A DNA stretch of 64,000 nt from Allacma fusca (Eukaryota > Arthropoda > Collembola > Symphypleona > Sminthuridae): positions 46,944,847 through 47,008,846 of the forward strand of contig OX359248.1 in the NCBI GenBank assembly GCA_947179485.1. Direction: 5' to 3'. Shown here in pieces: positions 42,501-64,000 of this stretch. The position numbers and the translations under genes are program-made. Every line of letters starts with the position of its first letter. Positions within the stretch are counted from its first letter, which is position 1. The notes below the pieces were generated by a model. That model was not told where the DNA came from, did not search any database, and was given only the letters and a program-made list of their open reading frames with translations.

Positions 42501-44086
42501 GATTGGTTTGGAGATTTTAACGAATTCAACAAGTAGTCCAGTAATTAAAGTTCAAGTACGAAACAAGTAAATCTCTTAGGAAATTCTCTAAAAATTGGTG
42601 TAATTGCCTGAAATTTCGTGAAACATAATACGAGCACGAATACAGGGATTTCTAAAAATTGGAGAAATTTTGATTATTCAGAGAATTTTGAAACTTTATT
42701 TGGGTCCTTGTGAAAAATATAATCTTTTTAAGTCCAAACAATTTTGAACTTTATCGAGAACTGTGATTCTAATCAAACTGCCAAATCTTGCCTATACATT
42801 AGGTTGTATCTTAATCTTCAGAGAGCTACTATAGATGTTTCAGTGTATTTGGCATTTGGGATTGGGACAAGTTAAACTACCAGTTTTATGTACAGGAAAA
42901 ACTTTATAACTGAATCGCAAGGGTGCCTGGTTTTTGTTCGATGTAAGCATATTTCGTTGTACACTTTTATAATGGACAAACCCGCTTTAAAGTAGAAACA
43001 TTTAAATGCAGAATCACAGATTAATCCAATTTGAATTTTGATAAGTAGTTAATAATTGTTAGAGTATTGAAATAGTCAATGTGCATGTGTAACAGTAACA
43101 ATTTCCTAGGTCAATTATTTAGCCTGAATATTTGCACATTTATTGTTAGTAACCATCACGAAAGAATCCGCGTACACTTCTTTTTAGCTTTTATGGACAG
43201 CGCCAGCGCCCCTTATCACTTATGGGTTTGTCCTGTCTGTACGTCTGCACTTATGTATGTTCATCTACATGTGTACACGAAAATTCAAGAACCCGTGATT
43301 ACATTTTATTGATACTTGGTACACATAGAGTCCGTGCATAAAGCCTGGATAAATTCGTAGATGAGCTCAAGCGGTCAAACCATTTCTAAGTTACCCGGGG
43401 TTTTCGAAAACTGCGTAACCCGTTATTGGATTGTGTTGAAACTTAATAGTACGAGCGTAAAATCCATCGGCTCCTCCAATGAAAAAATTATGCACGCGGC
43501 TATAGTCAATCTACATGTGTATATCCAAAACAGGTGGAGCGAAGTTTTGAATTCTTGACTCCTTATCGTCATTTTATGTTAAACTGATAGTTTGTTTGAT
43601 AAACGGTTCTTCTTGAACCATAAGTATGGAACAAATGTGTACAAAAATTGGTTTCAAACTAGTGTACATTGTACATTATTGTTTTTTTCCCCATTGCATT
43701 GTCCCTTTTCCCTTTTGCGGTTTACGGCTGAAAAATATTTATATATAAGTAGTGTTTATAATGGGGAGGATTTCCGGGAACCAGCCCGCCAGGCTTGTTC
43801 CCGTAATTCCTTCCCATGGCAGGGTTCGGGTTTATTGATTTTCCGGGTAAAACCGGAAAAACATCCCTCCTCGCTCTTTCCCAGCATTCCATCCCATGAT
43901 AAGTTTCGTCCTTATTCATTTATTGATTTTTCGCGGAAGTGCCTCCCATAGAATTTTTCGGGTAGCTAAGGTCTGATAGAAGGAGTACATGTCGCCATCT
44001 ATTTCATCAGGCGGAAATGATTTGAATTCCGATAAAATTAACATTAGGAACAATGCTGTATACTGCATACATCAGAGTATAGTGCT
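39562..44086. other. Non-coding stretch, nothing recognised
   Basis: AT-rich DNA with short ORFs only. I see no exon series, RNA gene or clear repeat family. Weak GGTTCGGG/CCGGGTAAAACCGG words occur near 43770-43870. Confidence 0.45.
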
Positions 44087-44803
44087 GATTATTGAGAAAT
44101 TGAATATACAATCGTAGACGTATGATAAGCTTTTGCAAATAGCTTAAAGTATGGCCTTTCCAATGGTGTATGAATCATATATAGTTAGACAAACGCATAT
44201 AGCTAATATCTAATGAATTAAAGGAGGGAACCATGTGATTTCAGGTATGTCATGTATTAAAATGACGATTATTGAGAAAATGAATATACAATTGTAGACA
44301 TATGAGTAGCTTTTTGAATAGCTTAAAGTATGGTCTTTCCAATAGTGTATGAATCATATATGGTTAGGCGAACGCATATAGCTAATATGTAGCGAATTAA
44401 AGGAGGGAACCATGTGATTTCAGGTATGTCATATATTAAAATGACGATTATTGAGAAAATGAATATAAAATCGTAGACATATGAGTAGCTTTTTGAATAG
44501 CTTAAAGTGTGGTCTTTCCAATAGTGTATGCATCATATATGGTTAGGCGAACGCATATAGCTAATATGTAGAGAATTAAAGGAGGGAACCATGTGATTTC
44601 AGGTATGTCATGTATTAAAATGACGATTATTGAGAAAATGAATATACAATCGTAGACATATGAGTAGCTTTTTGAATAGCTCAAAGTATACTCTTTTTAA
44701 TGGTACAAGAATTATATAAGATTAGTCGAATGCATATGGTCAATAACTAACTAATCAAAAAAGGAATCCATGTGATTTAAGCTATATTCTGTAGTGTATT
44801 GTT
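44087..44803. repeat. Satellite of four tandem 179-180 bp units
   Basis: Units start with GATTATTGAGAAA at 44087, 44267, 44446 and 44625, with a fifth partial start at 44804, so the period is 180, 179, 179 and 179 bp. Units 2 and 3 are nearly identical; units 1 and 4 are more diverged. Each contains an AAAGGAGGGAACCATGTGATT core. Confidence 0.95.
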
Positions 44804-44970: not shown

Positions 44971-45818
44971 ATGTCTGTTGACTTATATTTTAATTACACT
45001 CCTGCAGTCGAGCCTTTCATTGTGCACTCTCTGATAGTTCCAAAAGCCGATCGTCTGATTGTAACATATTCTAATGCTACTGCTGATGAATCGGACGAAG
45101 AAAATTCGCTAGTGGGGTACATATACGGGATAGGATTTCATAAATTAAAACAGGATATTCGCTATAAAGTCAACTGGTTTCACTATAGGTGAGGAATTGT
45201 TGAATTCTGGAATACGAATACATACATATAAAATATAACTTGACTTGTATAGAAATTTGTGAGTGTGAGGTTTGTGTTTGGATTTTTGAAAATAAACTGT
45301 GTTGCAATTTCAATACTGCTGCGTCTAGTTAGTTGTAATAAAACCAATTTTTTTGACTCAGATTTCAGGATACATGGGAGCCTATAAATAACCTATCTAG
45401 ACAAGAGGACAGTATTAAATCCTGGATGCTGATTTTTCATGCTCATTTTGCTGAGAAATATTATAATGTGGAAGCGAACGAGACGGATTTCTTTTGGCTA
45501 GACAATCTCAACGTGGTAACAATGGACCTTAATGAAGATCTTCGGGAAGAGCAATTTAACGATGGAAATGAGTTGGAAGAATTAGAATTAGTTCCATTTA
45601 CTAGTCCGGATGAGATGAAAAATGATGACACTACCAAGAAGAAAAATCAACGCATGCGGAGGAAGAAAAAACAATCAAACCTGGAGTTGAAGGAGTTCTG
45701 CTGTTCCATTTGTGACAGATCGTTTGCCGCCAAGTCTAACCTCGTTCGACATATTAAATCTGTTCACGAGAATGAGAGACCGGTTAAAAAAGGAGGAAAA
45801 ACGGTCCATAAATTTTGA
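44971..45818 (+). CDS. C2H2 zinc-finger protein, two exons, unknown target
   Basis: Exon 1 is 44971-45188 and exon 2 is 45362-45818, joined in phase by a GTGAGG donor and a GACTCAG acceptor (224 codons). The first half has no recognised fold. It is followed by an acidic stretch (about residues 125-165) and a Lys/Arg run (KKKNQRMRRKKK). Near the C-terminus is one canonical C2H2 finger (CSICDRSFAAKSNLVRHIKS, then VH). Nuclear DNA binding is therefore plausible but inferred. More zinc-finger coding sequence follows on the same strand at 45924-46715, so this may be the 5' part of a longer gene. Whether it belongs to the host or to the neighbouring Polinton as cargo cannot be settled here. Confidence 0.6.
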
Positions 45819-45923
45819 AGGCGGTCAAGGTGGCGAAACAAATAGTACTTGTTGAAATTAGAGATACTAAATGTTTAACTTATATAAGTAAAATCAAATA
45901 ACTACGTGTATTTTTCGTTCCAG

Positions 45924-46715
45924 ATGTTACTAAATGCCAAGCTTGTGGGGGAGAATTAAAAAATTCACTTGCCTTAAATGAACATTTGACCGATTGCGTT
46001 TCATTTCAAAGATGGAAAAATAAAATAATTCTCAACGACGTGGAGAGCCAAACAGAGAAAATAATTCTGGTCAATGTAGGTGTACAAACTTTCGTTGAAA
46101 ATGGTACAGTAAAAACGGAGAAAGAGAGTCACAGAGAGACTGAGCAAGGAATTACGAATGCACCTGAAAAAAAGTGGAGCGTAAGGAGAAGACTTGGACA
46201 GAGATTGAGACTGACGTGATTCAAAGAGAGATTGAGACGGAAACTGAGAATAAATCTGAGAGAACGGCAGGATGGGAAATAAAAAGAACATGCCATCTGA
46301 AATAGAGATGCAGGCTGCGGTAGATGCAATTTCACTCGACATGTCAACTGATGCTAAAAGAAATAAAGTGCTAAAAGGTAAATACTAATAGCAATATTAA
46401 TATGGATGTACAATAATTTCATTTTATATCGAGTCTTAAAGTAATTTTTAAAAAAACGTATTATTATTATTGTACCATTGTTTTAGTACACAAATTGAAT
46501 TACAAACTTTCATGTCTTGAACTTTTGCAGACACAACATGCATAACCTGCAAGGCACGACTCAGCACAATTTCCAGTTTGAAAAGGCATATCATATTGGT
46601 ACACACAAAATTTGAACCAGTGCCCTGCAAGTTTTGTAAAACAATTCTGGCAAATAAGTACAGTCTCGCGTTGCATCTAAGTAGAAAGATTTGTGTCAAA
46701 TCGAGCAAAAAATAA
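45924..46715 (+). pseudogene. Frame-broken zinc-knuckle/C2H2 coding segment
   Basis: After a TTCCAG acceptor, a frame encodes CQACGGELKNSLALNEHLTD plus C (a C2HC finger) and an acidic region. Coding character then moves to a second frame at an A7 run near 46166-46172 and to a third frame near 46265-46285. A good donor ends this exon at 46377. The next exon, 46531-46715, follows a TTTTGCAG acceptor and encodes two more fingers (CITCKARLSTISSLKRHIIL, then one starting CKFCKTILANKYSLALHL). Two frame changes suggest a decaying gene or assembly indels. It is likely related to the gene at 44971-45818, but no in-phase junction between them was found. Confidence 0.5.
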
Positions 46716-48096: not shown

Positions 48097-48626
48097 TATC
48101 TCCATCTGCACATCTCCATCTGTACATCTCCATCTGCACATCTCCATCTGTACATCTCCATCTGTACATCTCCATCTGCACATCTCCATCTGTACATCTC
48201 CATCTGTACATCTCCATCTGCACATCTCCATCTGTACATCTCTATCTGTACATCTCCATCTGTACATCTCTATCTGTACATCTCCATCTGTACATCTCCA
48301 TCCGTACATCTCCATCTGCACATCTCCATCTGTACATCTCCATCTGTACATCTCCATCTGCACAACTCCATCTGTACATCTCTATCTGTACATCTCCATC
48401 TGTACATCTCTATCTGTACATCTCCATCTGTACATCTCTATCTGTACATCTCCATCTGTACATCTCCATCTGTACATCTCTATCTGTACATCTCCATCCG
48501 TACATCTCCATCCGTAAATCTCCATCCGTACATCTCCATCCGTACATCTACATCCGTACCTCTCCATCTGCACATCTCCATCCGTACATCTCCATCCGTA
48601 CATCTCCATCCGTACATCTCCATCTC
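48097..48626. repeat. 14-bp minisatellite, about 38 copies
   Basis: The unit CATCTCCATCTGTA, with TGCA, CTATCTG and CCGTA variants, repeats at an exact 14-bp period for about 530 bp. Variant types are not randomly placed: TGCA units cluster in the left half and CCGTA units at the right end. As 14 is not a multiple of 3 the repeat reads through all frames, giving spurious minus-strand ORFs with a 14-residue period. Confidence 0.95.
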
Positions 48627-49076
48627 AACATTTCCAACCATCTGAAAAAAATGCTCCATGTTGGGTCCAGTTTCAATAGACTAGAGATGTTTTCTTCCAT
48701 ATCTTTCGATTGATTTCTATTAAACTCTCTTGACAATTGGTTCTACAGTTGATTTCCCCAGACAAAATGAAATATTATTATAATTTAACTTTTAAATCTT
48801 CTGTCTACCAGGTTACTGGAAAATTACTCTGACAGCAGAACATTTGATATATGCATGTGCATTATGTCCGTGTTTGAAATAAAGCACACCTCATATACTA
48901 CGGATTTGCTGAATTCTTTGATGTTTTATTGGATTATGATGTCTGAAAACTCTAAATTGCACCCGTGTCTGCTTCACCGATGCTATTTAAGAGAATGTAG
49001 TAGAAAAAATTGTTGTCACTTTCAAAACCTCCGTGTCTCATACTCTTTGACAGTCTAGATTCCCAAAGTCGACGTC
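48627..49076. other. Spacer upstream of the Cys-rich Polinton-associated gene
   Basis: AT-rich DNA that should contain the promoter of the gene at 49077. I could not locate a terminal inverted repeat here, because the partner end lies outside the window. Confidence 0.4.
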
Positions 49077-50548
49077 ATGCCAGTAAAACGGGAAGTGCGT
49101 GAAATTATTTGTGCAAAGTGTAAGTATAACATTCTTACGGAAGGTTCCATAAAGTTTACAAGAGTGAACACGCAACCGTTTCCAGGTATTATTGACCAAA
49201 ATGGTCAGCTCGTTAAAGACATAATGCAACAAATTGACGACTCGCCAACTACTAACTGGCCCACAGATTCAATCGTTAGAATTCTCAGGAATGGGAATGC
49301 ATCCTCAACTTGTTATCATCTCAAACATAGCCAGACTGTTCTGGACTACAAGAGGTCCAAGCCACAGTATGACATTTTTGACATCCGTGTGACGTGTCCA
49401 GTTGCGTTCTGCAAAAATAGCTACAGTCAGTTGGACCATGTAGAATGCATTCCTAGAAGTGCATTTCAGTGGAGTCCATTTGCCTGCAAAGTATGTGACA
49501 AGGAAGGTTACGCCAATAACAGCAGCAGCAGCAGCAGTAGCAGTAAATCTCTAATTCCTCCGAAACAACGACGTTTCAGGACTCCACGGGTAAAGGTTGT
49601 AGCTAATCCTGACTGGATTGAGACTTGCCCACGCCCTTCTGATTTACATCTCAAAACAAAAGTTGATAAGGAGATTTTAGAGTTGAGGAAACAACAAGGG
49701 ATTACCAAGTTTGAAAATGGAACGAAGCTCACGCTAAACAGTGGTGAAAAAATTGTTTTTCGTTCAACTGTCAACGGAGAGGTTTCACCTTTTATTGAGA
49801 CTCCATGGGATATTCCTGCAATGCAAGGAAGTGCATTGCCTAGTCTGGACAGTCGAGCAATTATTTCAACGACCAAAACTATTCCTTGCTCACTGAGCTC
49901 CACACCTGGCCTACAAACCACCGGAGAAAACTCCACAACTGATAACAATATTTCACCAACATTTGGAACATCCGCTGCGATGAATGCACAATATTGCAAT
50001 GAACAATATTGTGAAGCTGTACCCGGTAAAGGTCAAGAATTTCTCAAGAGCAAGATCAAAGACATTGTTAAAGCTGTAAATACTGAGCCGGCAAATACTT
50101 CCAACGAAATTGAGCTGCAGTCCGGCGAGAAGATTCGTTTTATCGATCAGAAAGGTAACTGTACCATCAACTGTATTTAATTAATTTGGTTTAACAATAC
50201 TAAAATACAGTGTATGATGCTTCAACATTTTGCTGAGGAGTACGTTTATGAATTTATTTAGGAAACCCAGTCATGGTTAAAGACATGCAGTGGTTGAAAA
50301 GTGATGTTGAGTATGATCAGCAGAAACTGAACCTTGAGGCGTGTGCCGTGACGGTAGGGAATTTCCATGCAGATGATTCTATCAAGGATGAGGAAGCAAT
50401 GTTCTCCCGTGGAGCTGCAGCATATGAACCAACATTGCAACAAATCAATACATCGATTGAAGGGTGGGATGCAGATGCAGCAGCCGTGGATGACAATGCA
50501 ATGTTCGATTGGAGTGAGTTCAATTTACACGCGTTTGAACATTTGTAA
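49077..50548 (+). CDS. Cys-rich Polinton-associated protein of unknown function, two exons
   Basis: Exon 1 is 49077-50154 and exon 2 is 50262-50548 (454 codons), joined by AAAG|GTAACT and TTATTTAG in matching phase. The first ATG has no in-frame competitor. The N-terminal 150 residues hold Cys pairs (CAKC, a CPVAFC-to-C spacing and CKVC) that suggest zinc-binding sites. A Ser run follows at about 150-160, then a basic segment (PPKQRRFRTPRVKV). The motif LNSGEKIVF is echoed 120 residues later by LQSGEKIRF, an internal duplication. The C-terminus is acidic and ends in aromatic residues (DWSEFNLHAFEHL). I do not recognise the family. It stands left of the helicase on the same strand, in the early/replication side of the element, so a regulatory or DNA-binding role is a guess. 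Confidence 0.7.
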
Positions 50549-50948
50549 ATATTGCGGCTTACATTTTGTAAATACTCAGTGAAATGATTTTAGGAAGTTG
50601 GAGTTGTTCAATTTTGTAAGTCAATCTAGTCTACTCTTATATGTGCGCGTACACTGAGCGTGGTTGTTAGTGTAAAGAAACTATTTTTATTACTGGTCTG
50701 GACTTATTAAAAAATGATTAGTTGGAAAACTCCAAATGTGCGTGTGTATCAATGCGATTCAATAACTCATACATGTATACGAAGCATAATACATTTTCCA
50801 ATCAAGCATTTATTTCCATAAATGTAAATAATCTAGATTCACTAGCACACGAGAAACATTTGGCATGCATAATATTTGAAAAAATAAATTAAATATGTTT
50901 GAACTTTGAAACTCTATTCATGCAAATAAAATCCGGTGACAAGTAGCA

Positions 50949-52024
50949 TTACATGCTGACGTCTGCATTGTCCTGACTCCCTTCAGCTCCAGCAGCTCCT
51001 TTATTATTCTGTTTGTTCGGGCGAACTGTGATGAAAGAATCGATTTTGTCCTTCCGATTCTCCAGTATAAACGCCTCCAAGTTGATGCATGCATTCATGG
51101 ACAGAGTTAAAACTGGTCCTGGCCAACCTGATACACAAAATATAGTATATACGTAAACTTGAACATTGGCTACTCTTTATGCAGGCATACATTCTCTCAT
51201 GTTTTTATTTTCACTACTACTACTACCACTACTACTACTATTACTACTACCTTTCAACTTGTTGCTTGTTTCAATGGGAACTGGACAGTTCATCATTATT
51301 TCCGGTGAGCCCAAAGTCGTGTTGAGCAACACACTCAGTCGCACGTTGCCCAAGTCCAAATCCACATCTTGAGCCCAGTACTCTAGGCGCTTCTCGTCCC
51401 TGCTTGAGTAGCATCGTCCTTCTTTCCCACGTAGAAATGGAATGATTGGCATTTCCTCCAATCCCTTTTCAGTTGTCTTCACCTGCATTTCAGCGTACTC
51501 ATCGAGAATCATTCCCAAAAAGCTAGCAATTTTTGCTCCTTGGTAGAAACTGAATTTAATGACAGTTGGCTTGGTAGTGTTTGTGGGTTTCCCCAAGTAA
51601 ACAAAATCCACTCGATGAATTGGGTTGAGTGCAATTTTTCCAGAGATGTCATCGTTGATCTAATGATTAATTTAATAATTATCCTGCTCACACCACACCT
51701 TCTCTTTTGGAACTGCTACATAAACGACAATATTAAAAATTGTACTTACCATTACACAGTCCGAAGTTTCGAAAAATTGCCATGTGCTGTACAGATCTTG
51801 CGAGGCTAGCTTCTTAGCAGTTCGCATGTACGGATCAAATCGCGTCAACGTTGGTCGCACACGAATTTTCTGACCTTAAATTAACATTTAAAAATATTAT
51901 TTTATTACCATAAAATTGCTTTTTTATTCCACGACAACTAAAAATTTCCGCAAACAATAATAATAATGTAAATAAAGTTACCACTAGAGGTTTGCTGTTG
52001 ATCGTTCTGAGCACTGCTTGCCAT
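50949..52024 (-). CDS. Polinton-associated protein of unknown function, four exons
   Basis: The exons are 52024-51982, 51874-51750, 51659-51251 and 51127-50949 (251 codons). All junctions are GT-AG and phases agree (1, 0, 1), which is strong evidence of a real gene even though the longest single ORF is only 144 codons. The protein starts MASSAQNDQQQ, has a mixed alpha/beta-looking core with conserved-looking aromatic and Gly positions (TWQFFETSDC, KFSFYQGAKIASFLGMI), and ends in a polar, disordered tail (NKQNNKGAAGAEG). No TM segment or signal peptide is seen. I do not recognise the family. It is transcribed divergently from the helicase with about 220 bp between the ATGs, so the two may share a promoter. 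A DNA-binding or replication accessory role would fit but is not shown. Confidence 0.75.
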
Positions 52025-52247
52025 TTTGGATACGTGAATAATGGTGCTATGTTTTTTTTTAATGCAAGATGAACTTGTGAAGGAGTTTGAAGGTGGAATG
52101 CGGACTAAATCCTTAAACTTGCTTTTATATGCTCAAGTCAGGCTGTACTTTGCGCACTACCCTATGAAAGTTGGAGACAACAATTTCGAGAGCAAAAGGA
52201 AGTCTACCTACAATTTTCGATTACAGTAGGAACTTGTGCCCGGCACC
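52025..52247. promoter_or_regulatory. Candidate bidirectional promoter region
   Basis: 223 bp separate the ATGs of the divergent four-exon gene (minus) and the PIF1-like helicase (plus). Any promoter for either must lie here or overlap. I see no clear TATA box. The inference rests on gene orientation only. Confidence 0.35.
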
Positions 52248-53912
52248 ATGGAGTTTACAGCTACAGAAGTAACATCGCAGGTATTCAACAGTTGGAAACG
52301 TCAGTGGTTAGCTAAGCCAGTGTTAGCTTTAAAGCCAAAAATTCCTTTCGAGGATCTTAGTGAAAAACAAAAGTATGTAGTTTCATTAGTTGAGACACAT
52401 ATTAAAAAAGATTTCGATGAGCAGATTCGTTCACAAATTCGCTGCCTTGTAACAGCTATGGCCGGGGCTGGGAAAAGTGAGTTAATAGCTCATCTACGGT
52501 ACGCATTTGAGAGAAAAAAGCAAAGCTGTCCAGAGTTTGAATACATACTTGCTAGTTTGACAGGGTCAGCGAGTTATCTCATTCGTGGAGCAACTATACA
52601 TTCATCCTTTTCCATACCTGTTTATTGCTCAGCAAATCATCTCATCAATGATTGTGACAACAATCATGATATCGCTGAGGAAGAGGAACTTATAAACAGG
52701 AAAAAGGATCGACTATCAAAAGTCAGTATTATTGTACTGGACGAGTTTTCACTTATTGGACAAAATCTGCTGAAGGAAATTGACTTACAGCTGAAGAGAG
52801 CAGACCCTAGAAACTCAGATAAGCCTTTCGCCGGTAAATCATTTTTAATGTTTGGAGATATTTACCAAACACTGGCTATAGCCGATACGCCGCTCTTCTA
52901 TCCATCATCTAAACGTCGAAATTCACATCTGCGGGGTGTTTACAACATGTACAAATCTTTTGACAAAGTTGTTGTGCTAAAGAAGCAGTTCAGACAAAGT
53001 GGGGATAGTGAAGAACAGGACGCATTTCGCAGCTTCCTAGACAGATTGAAAAGACGGGAATGTACAACTGCAGACCTTGAGTATATACGAGCCAGACTGA
53101 AAGCGAGGCTTTCCCCTACGGAACTGCAACTCTTTGAAAACGCTATACACATCTATCCATATCGACGTATGGTTTGGAGTCACAACAGGTATGTATTGCA
53201 AGGTTGTTGCATTGATCCGTAATTTGTCAAACTAAAATGATTTGACATTGGGATTTGTACAGTTAATTTCATACTGTACCTTTGTGTTTTTCCAAGGAAC
53301 GTTCTACACAGTAAGTTTACAGAATCGGAAATCCTTTGCTTGGGGAATGGAATATCATCCCTAGAAATTGCGATTGGCTGTAGTGTAGTTTTACAGAAAA
53401 ACCTGAGCGTCAACACTGGACTTAGCAATGGAAGCACTGGCACTGTTCGCGATGTGGTGTATGAGAGAAACGTTGGAAATGAAAAGGGGAGCGAAGTGGA
53501 GTATATTATTGTTGAATTTGAACAATACGAGGGGGAAAGGTTCGTATGCACGCAAAAGGGTCGAGGCGTTCCTATCTTTCGACAACATGATTCTCAGTAT
53601 GATGAAGAAAGGGGTTCATATATAAACTGCAAGCGATTTCCTCTTGAATTGGGATACTCCATGACAGGGCACAAATCTCAAGGGAGAAATCTTCCACGTG
53701 CGGCTGTGTTCCTTGGACAGCATCAATTATTTGTAGGCTTGGATTACGTTATGCTTTCCAGATGCAAAAGGATTACCGACATTTGTATTCTAGATGAGAA
53801 TATTTCTCCAGGTCGATTGCTCACACCAGCTGAACTTAACAGCCCAACGTCCCTGCAGAAATACGAAGAGAAGAGACTAGTTGCTCTGCAAACGCAATGC
53901 TTTGAAAACTGA
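52248..53912 (+). CDS. PIF1-like SF1 DNA helicase of the Polinton, two exons
   Basis: Exon 1 is 52248-53188 and exon 2 is 53297-53912 (518 codons). The donor is ACAG|GTATGT and the acceptor TTTCCAAG, in matching phase. The ATG at 52248 has a strong context (GGCACCATGG); an in-frame TAG lies just upstream. Motifs run in order: Walker A MAGAGKS (residues 71-77), Walker B LDEFS (164-168), GDIYQ (203-207), a KKQFRQ arginine motif, then in exon 2 TGHKSQGRNLPRA (motif V) and MLSRCKRITDI (motif VI). This is the PIF1/RecD-like superfamily 1 pattern. Such helicases unwind DNA 5'-3' and occur in several viral and transposon lineages, including some Polintons. In this element it would assist the family B polymerase. 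All catalytic motifs are present, so it looks functional. Confidence 0.9.
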
Positions 53913-53942
53913 AACTGTTTACACACACACAAGTAATTAATG

Positions 53943-53948
53943 TTTATT
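53943..53948 (-). terminator. Poly(A) signal of the DNA polymerase gene
   Basis: On the minus strand AATAAA lies 23 bp after the polymerase stop codon, in a 58-bp gap between the convergent helicase and polymerase genes. Confidence 0.6.
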
Positions 53949-53970
53949 CTGTACATACCAAAAAAATATT

Positions 53971-56900
53971 TCACATTTGTTTTTTCATTCTGTAATGACC
54001 AAAGGGGTACGACAAATTAAAGTCATTTGAATCTGGATAAGATCTATACACATCTAATGCATGGAAAGATAACTTATTTTGCGAGATAAAATTTAGTGTA
54101 TGATTAGATGATCGTATCATATTTACATTTAGTCTAATGTTTGAATTTTTTTCAACAACATTCTTGTATGTGTTGTGATTACAAAAATGATTTAGCGTAT
54201 TAGCCGGCACTCCCTTTGCTTTCATTTCACTCTGTGTATTATGCGTCAAAAGACTATACTGTTTTGATTTTAATGATATAATCTGTGATATATCTAAATT
54301 CTCAATTTTCCAAAGCCCGCTTTCATTCTTGTTAGCAAGTCTCAAGTTTGGAATATTTGAATGTAGACGGAAAAATTCGTGTGACTCAGGGATTTTGCTG
54401 AAGTCGAAAAACTCCCTATGTGTAACTAAATCATTCCAAATATCCTGCTCGTTCCCTAGTATTTCACATACAGCTGAGTCTGTATCAGTCTGGATAACAG
54501 TTATACGATTGCCAAAGATCATTCTCAGTTGATCATAAAATCCAGTATAGAATATGCATTTTGCCATTTCCAGAACAGTGAATCCACACGAGAGCAGATT
54601 ATTTAAAACCACTCGTTTGGGCTTCATTTTAATAATACTTAATTTCTCATTGACAACCTCAAAATCAACGCATTCCGCCGAGGCAAGCAACTCTTGAGCT
54701 TTCGCTCCACTCTGACATAATTTCATTTGAAAAAAATTCTCTCCACTCATTAAAGTTTTCCCGTACAGTGAATTATTCCACTGTTTCAGATCAGCGCGTT
54801 CCGACTCTGTCTGTGCAACTTTACGCTTTGCAATATTTTCCTCCACAAACTGACGTAAGTATGGTCTTTCATGGAAAGAAAATCCCGAATGAATTCGGGT
54901 GAGAGTCATTCCCTTTTGCAAATAGTAAGCAAGCGTACGATAATGTATTACATAGTTCTTACGGGGGAAGCAATGAAGTAGAAGCTTTTTAACTTTCATA
55001 TATGTTCGTGAACTAACATTGCCAAGCAATGCAAGCATTTCCTTTTGCCTAGTTGAGAGCCATTCTGGTTGTACGCAACGTTTTTCTGGGCATAGCGGCA
55101 GGCTGCATGTCACATCCTGAATGCATTCTGGATACTCTAAATCCACCGTTAGTATGTACCCTCGTTCGTTGCTTTGACTCAACAGTTCTTTGCACTGCCA
55201 GTCAATGTGTTGTAAATTTTCCAAGCTTTCCCATTTGAAATCGCTATGTGGAAATTTATACGACTTCATTACATGGCTATAAAGACCAACAATATCAAAG
55301 TACATAATACAACTGCCTGGCTTGTCTGACTGAAATCCCAGAGGATTCCTTGGCGTATTCGCAGTGGTAATTTTTCGAGTAGCGAATGACTGCCCTCCCC
55401 GTATTCCTGCTCGCAACATTTTGTACATTTCACGATCCCTCAAATAGTGCACTTCTTCCTCCGATGAATAAAGCCAGCATTGCCATGAGTAGCCGCTACT
55501 AGTACAACAATATGTAGGATCCAGACCGTATGTTTTAATACCATTGAGGACAAAATTTATCCAAATTATAGCAAGGTGAAGGGAATCTAACGTACAGTAC
55601 AATCGTGTGTATGTTTTAAAATCAGAGATCTGATAAGTACTACATACACGCAGTATGGTCTCCCATTGATCATCTGTACACGCCTCATGTGTTAAATCGT
55701 TAAAAAAATGCTCCCGCGTTGGGAGTGGAACTCCCCGAGCAAGTTGATCAGCTGATGCTAGAAACGAGTAGGGAAATGGAATCTTGGCTAAGAGTAGTTC
55801 AAACCCACTCTCTTGTGCTTTTGCATCATGCGGCTTCACTAGTGTGTGCGTGGGAAACATAAATGTTTCCATTGCGTTGTGTAGCAGCGAGAAATGTGGA
55901 GACTCTTCCTTTCTTAGCCTAGCTACTAATGTTGCTAGGGAGCTGGGCTGAAACTGGCATGAATCTAAAAATTTTATTTTTACCTTGCGGTTACCACACG
56001 CACTCTTTGTTGCATTAGCCTTGATACCTCCATAATTTTCATACAACTTTGGAATGTACATATCCCTAGCTGTCATTGTCATTTGAACAAATTTCTGGCC
56101 GGACTTAGCAATTATATTTATATCATCAAAACCGAATAAGCTCGAGTCCATATACTTTAGAAGCAAGTGAAAATCAAATGAGGATCCAGAGTGGCATAGA
56201 AAAACCAATTCGTTCTTATACCTGATTTTAAGATTACATCCCTGACAAATAGTTGAGACGTAGCGTCCATTGTCATGGTTATGATTATAACATTTTATGA
56301 CCCTTACATTTCGACTCTTTTCATTTTTCTCAAGCCGGCTTGACCGTGTAGGAATAGACTCATCTTGCTGGTTTTCACATTCACTATCGGAACTTTCGAC
56401 CAGATTTCCTTCCGCGTCAAATAAATCGTATGCAAGATCTCCTTGACCTGTAGCATCTTCAGATGAGTTGAATTTTCGTTTACAATGCTTGCAATGAGTT
56501 GCTTCGTTGTGTAGTCGAATTTCTTCCTCACTTGGCACAACCATATTATTGGTTGCTCTGACATGAGAAAGTAGTGTATGTGCCCAGTGGAAGGCTCGAG
56601 TAAAAAAATGCTTCACTGGAGATTCCCCGTCAAAATATTCTGTGGCGAGCAATTCTACTTCACTGCCGGTATTATGTGCAATAACTAGCGAGTAGCTTGC
56701 TGGGATATACTCGAATCGCTTAACAGTAGCTGGACGAGCTGTTCCATCTTCTTCCCCGTTTGTTTCCAAGGGCTTACTAAAACACTCGAAATCAAATGTG
56801 GCAAAGTAGGGATAGGGATGTACCATCTCCAGTCGTTTGAACTTTAGTGTTTCTCCTTCGGCTGGAAATTCATGTGAAGGATTCCATTCTTCTTCTTCTG

Positions 56901-58368
56901 CCTTGTCCACATCTTCCACGTCAATGTCAGTCGTGTTATATTTACAACACAAGGAATGATTGAGTTGTTTACCCTTGGTTTTAAATTTTCGGAAGCACTT
57001 TGGACACGAATAGACTGGAGTTTTAACATCGTCTTTTAGAAATCGGTTCAGATCCTTAATCCATGCATAATGGTATAAGTCGCGACTTGTTTCCTTGTTC
57101 CCATCATTGCTTTCAACGTTTTTATGTATAAGAAATAAGTTGACATTAACTCTGCCTTTGTGCTTGCTTGCTCTCATAAGAACGACGTTCTCATTTCTGT
57201 GGGTAAACACATTAACTGTTACATCATTATTTCGTTCAAATTGAGGAATGTCTTGATAGGGATTTACAAAACCCTCTGGAATGCCTGTAAAGTCAAGCTT
57301 GCTCATGAATTTACGATACGACATGTAATTAGACAGATCACGATTCTTTTTGCCGGCAGACTTATTTTCAGCCAGTTTATCTGAGTAAAAAATTGCAGCT
57401 GTCACGGCGTAACGGAAACAAAAGTTATCCGTGTTTTTAAAGTTAATAACACCAAATCGTTTTTCTGGAATGGTAGGGGAAGGAATCCACGAACACGCGC
57501 ATTCACGAATAATTTTAACTGTCCAATTTTGATTTCCAATCTTTCCAAACTTTTTACACGCCAGTTACTTCCGTATTCGAGAAATGTCTCTTTTTTGTCA
57601 ATAATTTCAGCTGCACAAATCCAAATTAAATCTTCAATACCGCTCTCATGATACAAATCATGATTACTTGATTTAAAATATATCATGGCTTGATGAGTAC
57701 TGCTTTCACCTCCATCCAAAATTATATCTTTTTCCATTATTAAGGACACGCTTATTTCAAGACGAATGTTACCATAAATAGAAATAATTTGTGTGAGAAA
57801 ACTGGCAAGATCGTTGTAGGTTAAAGTAAATGCTGTTTCCAAGTCGTCGGTATTTAACTCGTGACGATACATGTAGTGTACTATCACTCCCAAATGCGAG
57901 CGACTCAACTCTGCAAAGTTACGTAGATCTATCGGATGTCCGCCGTCAACATGGCCAAGCCGCTCACCCGCATGTTGACAACGATGCTCCACCTTGTAGG
58001 AACAGTATTGACCACAATGCTCGCACAGATGAATTTCTTCCACATGATTTGCGTAAAGAACGTGAGTTTTACAACTGAAACAGCATTCGGGCATGGAGCA
58101 TCGGAGAATCTAAAAATAAAACAAATGGTGGATAAATCTTCCATAAAATAAAATGCATGCTTTGAAGCCTATTTGGAGCTCAATAATAACGTTTACTTAC
58201 TGGTTGTGAAAACCCAGTCGTTAAGCACGATGGGTAATTTGATGTTTCATATGGAACTGTAACTTGACTGTTTTGATTTTGAATGGAATTTAGTTCTGGG
58301 TAGTGTTCGACTTCCCCGTCTGCTCCCGGATTCATTTCAGGTTCTGCTAATTCCGACGAGACCTCCAT
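53971..58368 (-). CDS. Protein-primed family B DNA polymerase of the Polinton, spliced, with one frame break
   Basis: Three coding blocks are seen. Exon 1 (58368-58201) ends in a strong GTAAGT donor and joins in phase 0 to the acceptor before 58109. The block 58109-57402 carries Cys/His pairs (CCFSC, CEHCGQYC). The main block, open from 57564 to 53971, lies in another frame and has no ATG at its 5' end. With GTG at 57405 as residue 1 its order is: C2H2-like finger (CPKCFRKF, 134-153), ExoI DFE (205-207), HNH-like Cys/His region (370-400), ExoII SFDFHLLL, ExoIII YCTLDSL (603-609), PolA DIVGLYS (704-710), PolB KQWNNSLYG (874-882), PolC TDTDS (973-977) and a KQY (1048-1050). These are the exonuclease and polymerase motifs of protein-primed PolB enzymes. 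The frame changes between 57402 and 57564. Catalytic residues are intact, so the break could be a recent indel, an assembly error or an unrecognised intron. Confidence 0.9.
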
Positions 58369-58896
58369 GAACGTATTAATTCACTTAAAAGTTTGTAGAA
58401 TTTAATCAAGACAAGGATGAAAAGCAAGAGTACAGTTGAGTATGACACTGAAACGAAATAAAAACTTTCACATTTAATTCGTAAAATTTGATGACTTTAC
58501 AATTCGCAGATAAATTGGGGAAAATGCTTTATGTCTACGCTTACCTGCTTTATTTTCGATAGTGGAGAGAGAGTCTTCAGCACTTGTCCCGTTTATGGTT
58601 GAGATTGTATTCTTCTCACCTCCTCCTCCACCGCCCCTTTGGTTTGCGTCGTTGAGAATTTTGCGCAGTATAAACTGAAAGTTAGTCATTAGACGGTCGG
58701 TTGAACTGAATATATCATTAGGCGCCATCTCTGAAGAACAAACGTTATTAGCACACTTCACCTTTTCTTGCTTACTCACAGACGGTAGTTGTGTCGACGT
58801 TTTTTCCAACGAAATACCTTGGTCACTTCCAAACGTGTAACAACTAAATTGACACGATGTCAATATGAATGTTATCAGAGTGATAAATTTAGCCAT
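58347..58896 (-). CDS. Small type I membrane protein inside the Polinton, two exons
   Basis: Exon 1 (58896-58545) encodes an N-terminal signal peptide (MAKFITLITFILTSC) and a Ser/Thr/Asn-rich ectodomain with a few Cys, a Gly6 run and a NGT sequon. Unspliced, the frame runs on to 58474, but a strong donor (GCAG|GTAAGC) ends it at 58545. The acceptor TTTCGTTTCAG opens exon 2 (58447-58347), which in the matching phase gives a hydrophobic helix (STVLLLFILVLIKFY) and a basic tail ending RSWRSRRN. The product is about 149 residues. Exon 2 overlaps the first exon of the polymerase (58368) by 22 bases in a different frame. Function is unknown; an envelope or host-interaction protein is possible but speculative. 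Confidence 0.65.
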
Positions 58897-58928
58897 GTTG
58901 TCGAGACAATTACAATTTTAAAACTGAT

Positions 58929-59525
58929 TTAGTGCTTCCTCCTAGACTTGTACTTATTCCGAAGTTGCGACTTTTTCCTAATCCGTTTTTTATTTTTTGT
59001 CGATTTGGAGAGCCCGTATCCTCTCTGGTTTTTCCTTGGACGTAGAGTTCTCTTTTGAGATTTGTCAGAAGTGCTTGGTACAACTGAAGCATTTCCAACG
59101 TCATCCATATTCGTCGGAGGATTCTCGGGTTTTTTCTCAGGAATTTCTGCTCTGGAAATCATACCTTCACGAGTCGCGTCGTCCAATGTCTTCCATTTGG
59201 CTGGCATTGCGTGGGATTGTTTGCCAGTTGCACAGCAGCAAATTCTTATAATTTGTCGACTTGCATGTTCTTTAGCGTTTTTATTTGCGCCATTAGTACT
59301 TGTATCTGCCACACTCGCGGGTTTATCTCCCCTCGTTTCATTAGTTAACAAAGTTTTATCAATTTTAACTGCTTCGGAATTATTTTTGAGGGCTGGAGGA
59401 AAGTCGTTTATATTTTCACCTTTTGCAAATGTATTGGATACATCAGCATTATCTAATTCTTTTCTATAAATACTCATAAGCCGTTCATAGAGGGCAGGAG
59501 ATATTACTTTCATGACCTTTGCCAT
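58929..59525 (-). CDS. Basic, disordered Polinton-associated protein
   Basis: 198 codons from the first real ATG (59525); the frame is open slightly further up but lacks another ATG. The N-terminus (MAKVMKVISPALYERLMSIY) is a short amphipathic helix region. The middle is polar and low complexity. The last 50 residues are very basic (TLRPRKNQRGYG, then KNKKRIRKKS and KSRRKH), like a nucleic-acid-binding or nuclear-localisation tail. Many Polintons carry a protein with a similar N-terminal 'YERL' helix in this part of the morphogenesis cluster; that comparison is from memory of the family and only suggestive. A virion core or scaffold role is inferred. Confidence 0.6.
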   Translation of the reverse strand: MAKVMKVISPALYERLMSIYRKELDNADVSNTFAKGENINDFPPALKNNSEAVKIDKTLLTNETRGDKPASVADTSTNGANKNAKEHASRQIIRICCCATGKQSHAMPAKWKTLDDATREGMISRAEIPEKKPENPPTNMDDVGNASVVPSTSDKSQKRTLRPRKNQRGYGLSKSTKNKKRIRKKSQLRNKYKSRRKH

Positions 59526-59854
59526 TGCTGACAACTGAATAAAACTATTTCACAAATATACACTTTGAGAAAAACCGTTGCCAATAATGCCTGGACAAGT
59601 GAAGAATTTCTATACAAATTCTTTCGAATCAAGTTTATATTTCCCGCTTGACGTTCTAACGTTCTTACGTACTTACAGACAACTTTGGTCGAATGCTTGC
59701 AAAACAAATTGAGATTTATGATTGCTTCTGCAACAGTAGCAAGTTCTTGGTCGGAACAGTTACGTAAAATGTTTTTGAAGGATTGTCTCTTGCTCAGAGC
59801 GAGATGTCTTAGAAATTTGAAGTTATTTTCAAATGTGTTGGTTTGCAACAACAT
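59510..59854 (-). CDS. Small conserved-type Polinton protein (LRHL/RQ motif)
   Basis: 114 codons from ATG 59854, which lies one base after the ATPase stop codon. The end overlaps the next gene by 16 bases. The segment FLRHLALSKRQSFKNILRN is followed by ELATVAEAIINL and a basic helix. This pattern (Leu-rich helix, Lys-Arg-Gln, then a short helix) resembles small proteins commonly found between the ATPase and core genes of animal Polintons; I cannot name the family. The last 20 residues are less convincing, and a donor-like GTTTTT near 59598 could end an exon earlier. Confidence 0.55.
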   Translation of the reverse strand: MLLQTNTFENNFKFLRHLALSKRQSFKNILRNCSDQELATVAEAIINLNLFCKHSTKVVCKYVRTLERQAGNINLIRKNLYRNSSLVQALLATVFLKVYICEIVLFSCQQWQRS

Positions 59855-59855
59855 A

Positions 59856-60542
59856 TTATTGCGGACTGTATACTTCACTATGTTCGTCGTCTGGAAATAT
59901 TGAGTTTCTCACCCAGTACGAATATTTTTTATTTTTAGGGTGCATGTCTAAAAGTAAATAACCATATGACTTGCTCGTTACAGCTTTCACATAAGCGGAA
60001 GTCAAAAACCCTGTTTGACCTGGACAAATTTGTCTAGCAATATTAGTAATTACACTGCGGTCTCTCGGAGAATCGTAAAGTATAAGTATTTGAGTGTTTA
60101 AATTAACTTCCCGTAGGCCTTTTACGAAGGGATTTTGTAATATAAGAATAATACTAGCTCCCCGATGATGACTGTGTTTTATAAAGTATCGAATTACGAG
60201 GTCTCGATACTCCTGCTTCGACAATAAATCACCTTGATCATCGAGCACTATTAAACAGGGGTCACTCGTTAGTTCTTCAATGTCAAATATTTTATTAGTA
60301 AATATTATATTTTTGTCCTCTTCCTGGAGACGATAAAATTCCTTCTGAAAATCACTATAGACATATATTACCTTGTAAATTCGTGTATCAAAAAGGTCGT
60401 AGCGCCTGCGTATCATTTCTAATGTATTAACCGTTTTACCACTTCCAGTTGCTCCTGATGCCAGAATTGTTGCAGGATGTGGGAAAGCGTAATTTATTGA
60501 ATTTACAGCCGCAGCGGTAGCACTACTTGTGTTGACTTCCAT
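59856..60542 (-). CDS. FtsK/HerA-type DNA-packaging ATPase of the Polinton
   Basis: 228 codons from ATG 60542; the open frame extends upstream but begins at TTG. Walker A is GATGSGKT (residues 30-37) and Walker B is LIVLDDQ (97-103), followed by a sensor-like ILILQNPF segment. Size and motifs match the A32-like/FtsK-HerA ATPases that pump genomic DNA into capsids in Polintons, adintoviruses and nucleocytoplasmic large DNA viruses. It sits between the protease and the capsid-side small genes on the same strand, as in other members of the group. Both nucleotide-binding motifs are intact. Confidence 0.88.
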   Translation of the reverse strand: MEVNTSSATAAAVNSINYAFPHPATILASGATGSGKTVNTLEMIRRRYDLFDTRIYKVIYVYSDFQKEFYRLQEEDKNIIFTNKIFDIEELTSDPCLIVLDDQGDLLSKQEYRDLVIRYFIKHSHHRGASIILILQNPFVKGLREVNLNTQILILYDSPRDRSVITNIARQICPGQTGFLTSAYVKAVTSKSYGYLLLDMHPKNKKYSYWVRNSIFPDDEHSEVYSPQ

Positions 60543-60637
60543 TCTCAATATGTTATATGCGACAGAAGATATACAACTGGAATATTTCAATGTACAGGGT
60601 CGAATGTTTATTGACACAATTACATCCAAAGTGTAGA

Positions 60638-61123
60638 TTATTTAAACAACAATTTATTTACGATTAATTTTCTCAATTTGCTACAGACTAGCCTATCATT
60701 ATAAATTTGTCCAGATTTAAACTGTGACAAATATTTTTCAAATGACAGACCTAATGCTCTATACAATACAAATAGTATACAATACTGACCGCAAATATCT
60801 GAATTCCACTTTTGCAATGATCTACAATTTTCCTTATTAAAAAGATTTTGACTTAGATTTATATTTTTGTATATTTTAATGTTTTTACCAAAACTGTCAA
60901 AATATTCAAAACTTCCAACATTACGCATGTAAAAACAAACCCAGTGTTTTCCTGGCTTAGTAGCTACATCTGTATTAACTACAAAAAAACATGCGCGTGC
61001 AGTAGTTTTTAAATTTTCAACTACAGAACTAAATTCATCTGCAGCAAGTACATGAAACGGAATTTTAATTTTGTAAACCTTTGAGATATAAGTTAGTATA
61101 TTAATTAAGGTATTAGTATTCAT
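60638..61123 (-). CDS. Adenain-type cysteine protease of the Polinton
   Basis: 161 codons with a clear ATG. The catalytic set of the adenovirus-protease (Ulp1/C5-like) fold is visible: His60 in GKHWVCFYM, Asp76 in EYFDSFG, Gln104 and Cys111 in QKWNSDICGQYC. The seven-residue Gln-to-Cys spacing agrees with adenain. In adenoviruses and Polintons this enzyme matures virion proteins. It lies directly after the capsid gene and before the ATPase. Length is close to but slightly below that of adenain (about 200 residues). It appears intact. Confidence 0.88.
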   Translation of the reverse strand: MNTNTLINILTYISKVYKIKIPFHVLAADEFSSVVENLKTTARACFFVVNTDVATKPGKHWVCFYMRNVGSFEYFDSFGKNIKIYKNINLSQNLFNKENCRSLQKWNSDICGQYCILFVLYRALGLSFEKYLSQFKSGQIYNDRLVCSKLRKLIVNKLLFK

Positions 61124-61127
61124 ATTA

Positions 61128-62566
61128 CTAATAGTCTAGCAAAACTGCTTTATTTGAATCAATTTCAAGAACATTCTGAAAGTGGCTGTAAACTACAACT
61201 TGAACAGCTTCATCTAGTGGAGATTTGAACCTTAAATGAATTTTTATATTTCCACGACGGTTGACAGAGAGGGCGTCGCTTTGGTTGGGCAGCAAGTCCA
61301 CCGCAATTAGGACATTTCCTTTAAACAAACCCAATGCAATTAGAATTCAAATGCATAATTTATAAACAATCTATGCTTGTAATTTATTTATTCTGGTATA
61401 CCCTCTTTGTAATTGTCGCGACAAATCGAATTCCCCAACAGTTGAGACCCCGCTGTATTTTGCAATGAGCGCAGAGCTAGGAGAAAATTGTCCTCGCCAG
61501 CACCGTTGACGGTTGTAAAACTGAGTGGAATTATGCGGTGTTGGATTGTCTCACCATTCCATGAAAATCCAATTTCCGACAGGTTTTTGTGCACAAAATT
61601 AAATGCATCTTTTGTTACGCTTCCCATAAACGCATCAGCTGCAACTATTCCGCAAACAATTACTTTTGGAATTCTTCCAAGCAGTATACCTTCAGTTGTG
61701 ACCTGACTTAAACCTTGGGGTACAGAAAAGGTTTTCAAGTCAGCGTTGACAATTGGGTATTTAAATGTTCTTCCCAACGACAATTCATGGCGATGAATAT
61801 CAATTACTTGCTTTGACACAACCTTTTTCGAAACGTAGAACACTGCCTCGTTTATGTCATAGCGGTAGGGAGTGCCTGAGATACCGGGAAGGGTGGCAAC
61901 ACTGGAATCAATACAAAGTTCAGGAGGACTGCGCCTCAGCAGAATTCTCAAATCACTTCCAGCTGGCAAGTATCGATTTTGGTTGAAAATGTTGCAATTG
62001 AGATTCCCCAAAAGGGTGAATTGCTTGGAATTCTTGCTTTTTTCATAACGGTTTTTAAATCCGGCATCGGTTATCTTAAATTCTTCCTTTTTAACGTTGG
62101 GATACCAAAACTCATTCTTCAATTTGTTCGTTTTTTCAACACCGCTTGCCGATAGAAGTCGCTGAATGTATGACATTGTTGGGTAATGGTTATTACTGTC
62201 AGATATCAATGTCCCGTTCAGATAAACTTCCAGATTATTGAACATTGCGTGAAAGAAATTAGAACTGGGTGCGCAAATATCTGAGTCGTCACAATTTTTC
62301 CCGTCAGCTCTTAATATGCGACATGTCATGGCGAGGAAACAGTCTGAGGGATCAACGTACCCGTTCGTATCTGACATTAAATAAAACTCTATTGGATTGT
62401 ACGTCTCCTTGACGGAGACAAGGGGGAAACATGGAATATAGTCCGAGCTCTGTTGAATGCTAACGTCAGTTGGAGGAAGTTGAAATAGGTTCAACTCTGA
62501 TCGAAGAGATTGTGTCGAGCCCTCAAACACGGTGGGACGCTCCAGAAACACCGAGTTGGCATCCAT
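61128..62566 (-). CDS. Major capsid protein (F54H12.2-like, double jelly-roll) in two exons
   Basis: Exon 1 is 62566-61402 and exon 2 is 61318-61128 (451 codons), with a GTATAC donor and a TTTAAAG acceptor in phase 1. Without splicing, the first frame stops at 61388 after seven-odd aberrant residues, while the second frame carries the expected C-terminal strand region (IKIHLRFKSPLDEAVQVVVY and a final VLEIDSNKAVLLDY). N-terminal features include LNLFQLPPTDVSI, MFNNLEVYLNGTLISDSNN and a FNQNRYLPAGSDLRILLRRS stretch. These match the metazoan 'F54H12.2-like' proteins, named after a C. elegans Maverick-derived gene and taken to be the capsid protein. Length is normal for the family only with the second exon. 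It is the main evidence that this element could form virions. Confidence 0.88.
61319..61401 (-). other. 83-bp intron in the major capsid gene
   Basis: It runs GTATAC...TTTAAAG on the minus strand and contains in-frame stops. Removing it restores the reading frame into the conserved C-terminal segment. The size matches introns of the two host genes in this window. Confidence 0.75.
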
Positions 62567-62577
62567 GTTTATTTTAT

Positions 62578-62949
62578 TTAATTACGCCTGACGCACTTGC
62601 GTTTTACTACTTTTGATCGACGCCTTCCCGCTCCAACTTGAATCTTTCGTAGAGGTCCTCGACGACTTTTGACTGACCTTTTTCGTCTACGCTTGGTCGT
62701 TGTTGTACTTCGTTTACGCCTTCTTCCGCCTCCGCTCTGTTGCTTCTGTCTTCGTTTCCGTCGAGGTACGCCTGCTCTAGAACCGCTTGCACTGTTTTTC
62801 AAAGGTATGAGGTAAGAGCTGGCTTCTGAAGAAAGACCACTACTGCCACCAGCCATTGACGATGCGTCAACTGAACCACTGCCAATCTGCAACTGAGTAG
62901 TTTTTGGTTCCAGATAGCAGGCTTTATCGTCGCACTCTACTTGCCTCAT
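62578..62949 (-). CDS. Arg/Lys-rich virion core-like protein
   Basis: 123 codons. The first 60 residues are Ser/Gly-rich (SGSVDASSMAGGSSGLSSEA). The rest is extremely basic, with clusters such as PRRKRRQK, GGGRRRKRS, KRRRKRSVKSRR and VVKRKCVRRN. Composition and position, just ahead of the capsid gene, are like the DNA-condensing core proteins (pVII/mu type) of adenoviruses and their counterparts in Polintons. Homology cannot be shown from such low-complexity sequence, so the role is inferred from context. Only 11 bases separate its stop from the capsid ATG. Confidence 0.65.
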   Translation of the reverse strand: MRQVECDDKACYLEPKTTQLQIGSGSVDASSMAGGSSGLSSEASSYLIPLKNSASGSRAGVPRRKRRQKQQSGGGRRRKRSTTTTKRRRKRSVKSRRGPLRKIQVGAGRRRSKVVKRKCVRRN

Positions 62950-62978
62950 TATATCGACGACGGTTTTGCACGAAATAT

Positions 62979-64000
62979 TTAAATTCTTGGTCTAAAGTTT
63001 AAAATAACGCTCGTCTCCTCCTTGGATAAATCCCAGGGTTGAAAGTACTCGTCTAAAAAGTCGACACGTAAAATGCTAAGTTGTTCACAGTTGACTGGTA
63101 TATATGAAACTGGATGGAATTCCTTTTCAACTTCCTTATTTGGTTCTGTTTCCATTGCTAGCTCTGCCAACAGCGGAACAAAATGGTTTTTATAAAACTG
63201 ATTTTCCACGCAATTTAGTAAAACTAATAATCGCTTTGCCTCAGACAGGACAGGTACAATTTCGTCTTCACCCTCCTCGACCTCACGCATTTGCTGTTCC
63301 TGAACGACGATTTCGTGTCCAACCTCGATGCTGGTGCCATTTTCAAACAGTGTCAACAACGGTATTTCAAAGTATCTCTTTACTGGCACGGGTAACTCAA
63401 TGGAAAAGTAGCGAGGAATTTGATTTACAAACATTGCTCCGTTTCCATACTGAAACTTAATGTCAAACTCTGGAAATTTTTCATTTTTAAATGCTTCGTT
63501 TAATTCGCCAATAACGTCATTAACTGCCATTGTTTTCGGTTCTTTCATTGGTATAAACAATTTGCTGGTGTAGCCTAGTCGAAAATACAGTGGATCATCT
63601 GCTGGAATTTTCTTAAACTCTGCTTCGTTGATGCTGCCAACACCTTCGTGGCGACCAGTTGGAAGCCTCTCGCGGTTGAAGCCCAAACTATGAACAATGG
63701 GCTGGGGAAGATTTATATAATCGGACTTATGTCCTCCAGAGACTCTTGCAACAGAAATTGTACATTTTTTGCCATTACTAAATTCAAACTTTACATCGAA
63801 CCCAGATTCCAACAATCGAGTAGAAAGTGCAGAACAAAAGCCTTTCACTGTCGTCTCTTTGTGTTTATAAACGACAGCCAAACTTTGAAATTGCTGATGT
63901 AGCATAATTAAATTTCCCTTGTAATTATGCTTCACAATACAAACTTCGAACTGCGTGTGCGCTGTCAGATTTTTGTACATATCTTCATTTACAATGTCTT
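62979..64000 (-). CDS. Penton-like/minor capsid candidate, 5' end beyond the window
   Basis: An ATG lies at 63980, but the frame stays open to the window edge, so the true start may be outside. From 63980 the product is 333 residues. There is a hydrophobic N-terminal strand region (FEVCIVKHNYKGNLIMLHQQ), a segment INLPQPIVHSLGF followed by a charged loop, then a second strand-rich half and an acidic stretch (REVEEGEDEIVP). Strand-rich character, the 'LGF' segment and its place at the head of the capsid cluster resemble the minor capsid (penton, vertex) proteins of Polintons. I rate that as a reasonable guess rather than a recognition. Confidence 0.5.
   Translation of the reverse strand, partial: DIVNEDMYKNLTAHTQFEVCIVKHNYKGNLIMLHQQFQSLAVVYKHKETTVKGFCSALSTRLLESGFDVKFEFSNGKKCTISVARVSGGHKSDYINLPQPIVHSLGFNRERLPTGRHEGVGSINEAEFKKIPADDPLYFRLGYTSKLFIPMKEPKTMAVNDVIGELNEAFKNEKFPEFDIKFQYGNGAMFVNQIPRYFSIELPVPVKRYFEIPLLTLFENGTSIEVGHEIVVQEQQMREVEEGEDEIVPVLSEAKRLLVLLNCVENQFYKNHFVPLLAELAMETEPNKEVEKEFHPVSYIPVNCEQLSILRVDFLDEYFQPWDLSKEETSVILNFRPRI

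Follow-up and report, generated by a model that had tools for sequence, protein, structure and literature searches.

A window of 64,000 nucleotides from the springtail Allacma fusca (G000:C12:46944847-47008846 in an assembly of 392.74 Mb and 91 contigs, a location that we infer to be on chromosome 4) very probably contains an integrated Polinton/Maverick (polintovirus), whose family appears to have been recently active and whose capsids appear to be under selection. The element extends from window position 43748 to L009:2277, where L009 is the DNA reaching to the right of the window and L009:2277 is equivalent to window position 66030; it spans 22,283 bp and ends 2.03 kb past the window. It is of an already known kind, and what is unusual is how recent and how abundant its family is.

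The right terminal repeat was located by searching the left region against the DNA to the right of the window, which gave one strong inverted match. The left terminal inverted repeat (43748–43846, plus strand, 99 bp, starting with AGTAGTG) and its inverted partner at L009:2179–2277 (window-equivalent 65932–66030) are identical at 99 of 99 positions, and the 6-bp target site duplication TATATA occupies 43742–43747 and recurs directly after the right repeat. This duplication is weaker on its own because it is palindromic; 11 other pairs of the same family have equal 6-bp flanks of their own. Just beyond the window, at L009:1146–1955, lies an rve integrase (PF00665, E 1.6e-12) with a candidate acidic triad at residues 73, 135, and 169, assigned by eye. 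Host genes lie on both sides, with a gene of the FKBP type on the left at window 30.2–30.6 kb (E 3.6e-9) and an aldo-keto reductase gene on the right, about 6 kb from the element (E 3.7e-18). An earlier note on this window had proposed a large Polinton/Maverick beginning at 49077 and an extension past 64,000. The extension turned up everything asked for, a second terminal repeat with its 6-bp duplication, an integrase, and host DNA on the right, and the identification is borne out by these features together with the gene set. The left border had to be moved: the true start is 43748, and the earlier limits fell short by 5.3 kb at the left end and 2.0 kb at the right.

The same borders bear on the possibility that a free or contaminating virus contig was misassembled onto a host chromosome. 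A related contig, C88, which at 24,881 bp is almost exactly one element in length, would fit such an origin. Nevertheless, both terminal repeats, the duplication, and the host genes on either side lead us to reject a misjoined free virus here, as the earlier note had argued from host DNA, and the equal flanks of the 11 other pairs, at other sites, point the same way. We regard this explanation as extremely improbable.

Within the integrated element, the gene for the major capsid protein occupies 61128–62566 on the minus strand. Its first exon runs from 62566 as an open frame of 392 amino acids down to 61388, and the frames suggest an intron at about 61319–61401 and a final exon at about 61128–61318; a truncated capsid gene was ruled out by this final exon after a short intron. 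The protein has no match in Pfam, yet its structural model matches double-jelly-roll capsids (PBCV-1, mavirus, African swine fever virus (ASFV), adenovirus, and PRD1) in Foldseek, which upholds the earlier assignment. By sequence, the capsid alignment gave only six weak, unrelated matches in the PDB (best E 0.051), and none of its 57 pattern matches was confirmed in a scan of IMG/VR that may omit records of the A. fusca genome. A separate PHROGs search gave nothing better than E 0.011. On the same strand lie an adenain-like cysteine protease with its catalytic motifs (60638–61123; Peptidase_C5, E 4.4e-4) and a packaging ATPase of the A32/FtsK type (59856–60629; Pox_A32, E 0.0038; Walker A GATGSGKT, Walker B LIVLDD). 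The core-like protein of the earlier note is present as a basic 123-amino-acid open reading frame (ORF; 62578–62949, minus strand) whose role is suggested by its composition, and its penton is a candidate by position only (62979–64000, minus strand, continuing to L009:1007), one gene from the capsid gene, with an open frame of 592 residues and an internal methionine as the probable start. Pfam matches below the cut-off were seen for the 123-amino-acid ORF (DMRT-like), for part of the penton candidate (MYCBPAP), and for P0012, a relative of the penton candidate (PepX_N); all are weak.

The replication genes lie to the left of these. A PIF1-like helicase (52236–53912, plus strand; PF05970, E 1.2e-15) is encoded in two pieces around an interruption at about 53189–53296. 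The same two-piece layout is present in 7/7 copies examined and the ends are GT-AG in the window copy, and therefore the interruption is probably an intron; a broken PIF1 gene was ruled out on these grounds. Short introns are apparent in the capsid and integrase genes as well, the latter at about L009:1083–1162 with GT-AG ends, as inferred from the frames. The main part of a family-B DNA polymerase (PolB) lies at 53971–57405 on the minus strand (PF03175, E 1.1e-16, with its motifs) and the N-terminal part at 57402–58094, on the same strand in another frame. The Pfam match assigns the protein to family B, and its priming by protein, which the earlier note had assumed, is presumed here too. Pfam thus confirms four genes named in that note, helicase, PolB, protease, and ATPase, the last two with scores below the cut-off, and the catalytic motifs are present.

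The ratio of nonsynonymous to synonymous substitution rates (dN/dS) connects the capsid gene to the life of the family. In capsid exon 1, comparison of the window copy with 12 family copies gives a dN/dS of 0.039–0.052, with 11 synonymous and 2 nonsynonymous changes against each of eight copies and 33–35 synonymous and 5–7 nonsynonymous changes against the other four. Two more distant relatives give 0.088 and 0.031 (the latter at a synonymous rate, dS, of 1.5), and 15 others are saturated. The natural PolB frames give 0.093–0.133 in four comparisons, the integrase 0.127 and 0.065, and the penton candidate 0.051 and 0.172. The capsid values are at or below those of PolB and integrase, and they are the lowest among comparisons with at least 15 changes. 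These ratios indicate that the capsid gene is under purifying selection, and this constraint suggests that capsids matter to propagation; a similar argument has been made for vertebrate Mavericks (PMC8097293).

Two other accounts of the family can be weighed against these values. First, it could be a plain intracellular transposon that moves by germline transposition and carries its capsid genes along without forming particles. The location of 13 of 14 paired copies on chromosome-scale contigs is compatible with this account, as is the lack of a confirmed relative in the one IMG/VR scan, within the limit given above. However, the lowest dN/dS would not be expected of a capsid that did no work, and we consider this account unlikely. 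Second, the window could hold an old element, domesticated or fossil, that the host has retained (for example, for its capsid gene) and that has not recently been mobile, as the combination of a split PolB and a strongly constrained capsid gene in the window copy might suggest. This seems very improbable, given that PolB and integrase are constrained as well, that the terminal repeats are identical, and that near-identical copies occupy many sites.

The earlier note had surmised a recent insertion from preservation, and recent spread of the family is supported by these dispersed copies. The terminal repeat has 40 matches genome-wide, which form 14 inverted pairs 20–25.3 kb apart (one of them on C88), a degraded 10-kb pair at C8:39.36, and ten single-ended matches, the last two groups being left out of the count of pairs. 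Equal 6-bp flanks occur at 12 of the 14 pairs (TATATA, CGGAAT, ACAAGG, TAAATA, CCCGTT, GATATG, GACCTG, GATGGA, TTTAAC, AATGTA, AATAAG, and AAAACT). With the capsid gene as query, at least 105 matches were obtained, this being the number scored from 695 candidates; 98 of these 105 are free of stops over the matched stretch, and protein identity is 96–100% in 16 and 56–93% in the rest. Five copies (C88, C9:46.3, C8:49.8, C1:13.1, and C10:32.7) have no mismatches among themselves in the PolB (about 4.7 kb) and capsid (about 1.7 kb) blocks. One further observation concerns C8:49765343-49790295, which is identical to others in the compared blocks and has unequal flanks (GTTATC and TAAATG); it may be a recombinant or a misjoin.

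The copies also appear to exchange sequence. In PolB, 4 bases and one gap base separate the window copy from the five-copy group; in the capsid block, 17 bases do. C8:4.1 and C12:49.8 match that group exactly in the capsid block and C1:3.88 differs from it by 2 bases, whereas in PolB all three differ from it by 49–52 bases. The capsid block of C12:49.8 is identical to that of C1:13.1, unlike its helicase block, which is closest to C9:43.4 (97.0%) and only 94.1% identical to C1:13.1. The PolB differences are clustered, with the maximum chi-square reached by 0/2000 shuffles in three of five triplets, and a tile comparison with four copies, over the stretches for which counterparts were available, shows the same switches. 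It is likely, from these patterns, that the mosaics arise by recombination or gene conversion between copies.

Alternatively, both mosaics and identity could be artefacts of assembling repeats longer than the reads. The assembly was made from ultra-low-input HiFi data (PMC10427803), the elements, at 20–25 kb, probably exceed the read length, and two of the 14 pairs, C8:49.77 and C88, lack matching flanks. Against this, flanks are equal at the other 12 pairs, and part of the mosaic sequence occurs in none of the other copies examined: the capsid block of the window copy differs by 16–17 bases from eight copies, while its PolB is only 4 mismatches and one gap base from five of those eight. Repeat assembly is the less likely cause because the flanks match, and an artefact of this kind seems to us doubtful.

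Several further observations weigh against a recently active, capsid-dependent family. The capsid model has a low mean predicted local distance difference test score (pLDDT) of 54 and its Foldseek template modeling scores (TM-scores) are low as well, about 0.26–0.36 by query length (42 PDB rows at E <= 0.001), which leaves the predicted second jelly roll with weak support. The penton candidate's position fits that of PX, the single-jelly-roll penton of Polintons, and its predicted fold has a pLDDT of only 33. The ATPase match falls under the Pfam cut-off, and that of the protease just under it (20.4 bits versus 21.3). Some morphogenesis genes have few changes and show no clear constraint: nonsynonymous changes make up 1/3 and 0/2 in the 123-amino-acid protein, 0/2 and 9/15 in the protease (6 synonymous and 9 nonsynonymous against C9:43.4), and 2/3 against C88 (1 synonymous) and 4/12 in the other comparison in the ATPase. 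Constraint on the capsid gene is, moreover, no proof of infection between animals. As for recombination, the remaining two triplets are negative (1003/2000 and 1900/2000 shuffles), and the three positive ones share sequences and are hence not independent. Assembly could inflate identity between copies longer than reads, and the left end of the C8:39.36 pair lacks the standard start and could not be scored.

With regard to autonomy, the window copy itself departs from the family. Its PolB frame is split near 57.4 kb, so that the earlier description of the element as mostly intact fails for the polymerase; the break may alternatively be a consensus error of the assembly. Among 12 further copies, PolB is a single stop-to-stop frame of 1378–1379 codons in 10 and is interrupted also in the remaining two, C9:43.4 and C1:40.8. 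Because of the split, the window copy is unlikely to replicate on its own and is probably not autonomous. The particle formation envisaged in the earlier note finds support at the level of the family only, and indirectly (98/105 capsid genes open and purifying selection), and does not extend to this copy. For an active family member, we would propose that the linear DNA is replicated by protein-primed synthesis with the family's own PolB, that transcripts are nuclear and spliced, that the ATPase packages element DNA into capsids matured by the protease, that the integrase inserts the element and so produces the 6-bp duplications, and that co-resident copies recombine. The window copy would then spread only with a polymerase from another copy, or it may have been inactivated after insertion.

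Contig C88 (L013, L023, L031, L032) deserves separate consideration. Its element, at positions 6–24874, measures 24,869 bp; beyond the terminal repeats the contig has just 5 and 7 bases, which form no duplication. C88 is a separate copy or variant, since its element departs in length from three chromosomal copies (24,953 bp twice and 24,690 bp) with matching sequence in the compared blocks. It could be a free linear genome, and it could also be a product of the assembler cutting at the repeat borders. Of the 105 scored capsid matches, one falls outside the six large contigs, which is no excess in itself. That A. fusca harbors a living, recombining polintovirus population still making particles, with C88 as one member's linear genome in extrachromosomal form (replicating or packaged), is a speculative idea that we think improbable. 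A terminal repeat at C38:12831-12919 (L033) is similar over only about 80 bp before other sequence follows, and it may belong to a non-autonomous derivative. Its outer flank, GACATC, matches the 5 bases to the left of the C88 element, perhaps by chance; any view of C88 and C38 as halves of a single insertion would depend on this 5-base match.

The remainder of the element holds genes and repeats of less certain role. From the left, these are 179-bp tandem repeats adjoining the left end (44078–44795), a C2H2 zinc-finger gene of apparently several exons (44971–46715, plus strand, presumed limits and exons; zf-C2H2, E 5.4e-6 on 45426–45815), and a 14-bp tandem array with approximate limits (48098–48640); both arrays may account for length differences among copies. 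Next is a 367-amino-acid protein with no function assigned (49077–50180, plus strand), with a probable further exon at about 50260–50550 and two relatives found, both from A. fusca. A multi-exon gene, likewise without assigned function, follows at 50949–52024 on the minus strand (presumed limits; largest piece 51177–51611), and its 144-amino-acid piece recurs in both other copies looked at. Three minus-strand ORFs complete the set, of 140 amino acids with a hydrophobic N terminus (58474–58896), 201 with a basic C terminus (58929–59534), and 122 (59510–59878). The existence of two element types with different left-end cargo was ruled out for two copies: they carry the same genes, as far as these were examined, and their terminal region has diverged. 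In a separate genome search with PF03175, 91 of 424 candidates were scored and 82 matches resulted, 78 of them without stops; none of the matches listed is a PolB gene of the window's family. L006, L007, L008, and the same-scoring matches represent other PolB groups, with frames of 1505–1520 codons in many places; L006–L008 are mutually 99.7–99.8% identical over 4.56 kb and about 40% identical over 88 residues to the window element's PolB. These groups are probably further recently spread elements of unassigned kind.

Among related systems, the adintoviruses, said to have been described by Starrett et al. in 2021, reportedly have animal hosts and carry PolB and an rve integrase alongside adenovirus-like genes for morphogenesis. 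The A. fusca element shares all of these and is known as an integrated sequence, not as a free virus. Mavirus and other virophages likewise encode integrase, PolB, protease, and ATPase. Their capsid fold is related, and the capsid of mavirus ranks among the top structural matches, at an identity of 9–13% in structural alignments; the host here is an animal, and, unlike for the virophages, we know of no giant-virus partner. The best BFVD match of the capsid model is R9XLG5 of Cotesia sesamiae Mombasa bracovirus (E 2.1e-12, 24% identity), which comes from a wasp virus and is distant in sequence; there is a report of a Maverick that was carried into a bracovirus locus.

The elements of A. fusca appear to be undescribed in the open-access literature, where we found no paper on springtail Polintons and where a search for Collembola and Maverick listed none on such elements. 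The A. fusca genome note (PMC10427803) and the paper on paternal genome elimination do not use the words polinton, maverick, or virus in their main text. In an arthropod survey, Maverick is given among the superfamilies found in every species studied (PMC6327564). Particles of animal Polintons had not been observed as of the abstract of PMC8097293. A. fusca would be a promising species in which to look for them, since it has a dozen or more copies that are young, dispersed, and recombining, and 98 of 105 scored capsid matches are free of stops. Recombination between co-resident copies offers a route for the exchange of gene blocks among such elements. As Polintons/Mavericks are described in PMC4028283 and PMC8097293, the element resembles them in size, in its terminal repeats and 6-bp duplications, in gene set (including a double-jelly-roll capsid and, one gene away from the gene for it, a penton candidate), and in purifying selection, and adds to those accounts the PIF1-like helicase, the C2H2 zinc-finger gene, and the genes without assigned function. 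In contrast to the intact vertebrate Mavericks, described with intronless conserved ORFs (PMC8097293), it has apparent introns in its integrase, capsid, and helicase genes. Finally, the vertebrate maximum given there is 38 intact elements in one genome, a count of whole elements and hence not equivalent to ours, whereas A. fusca carries very many open capsid genes.

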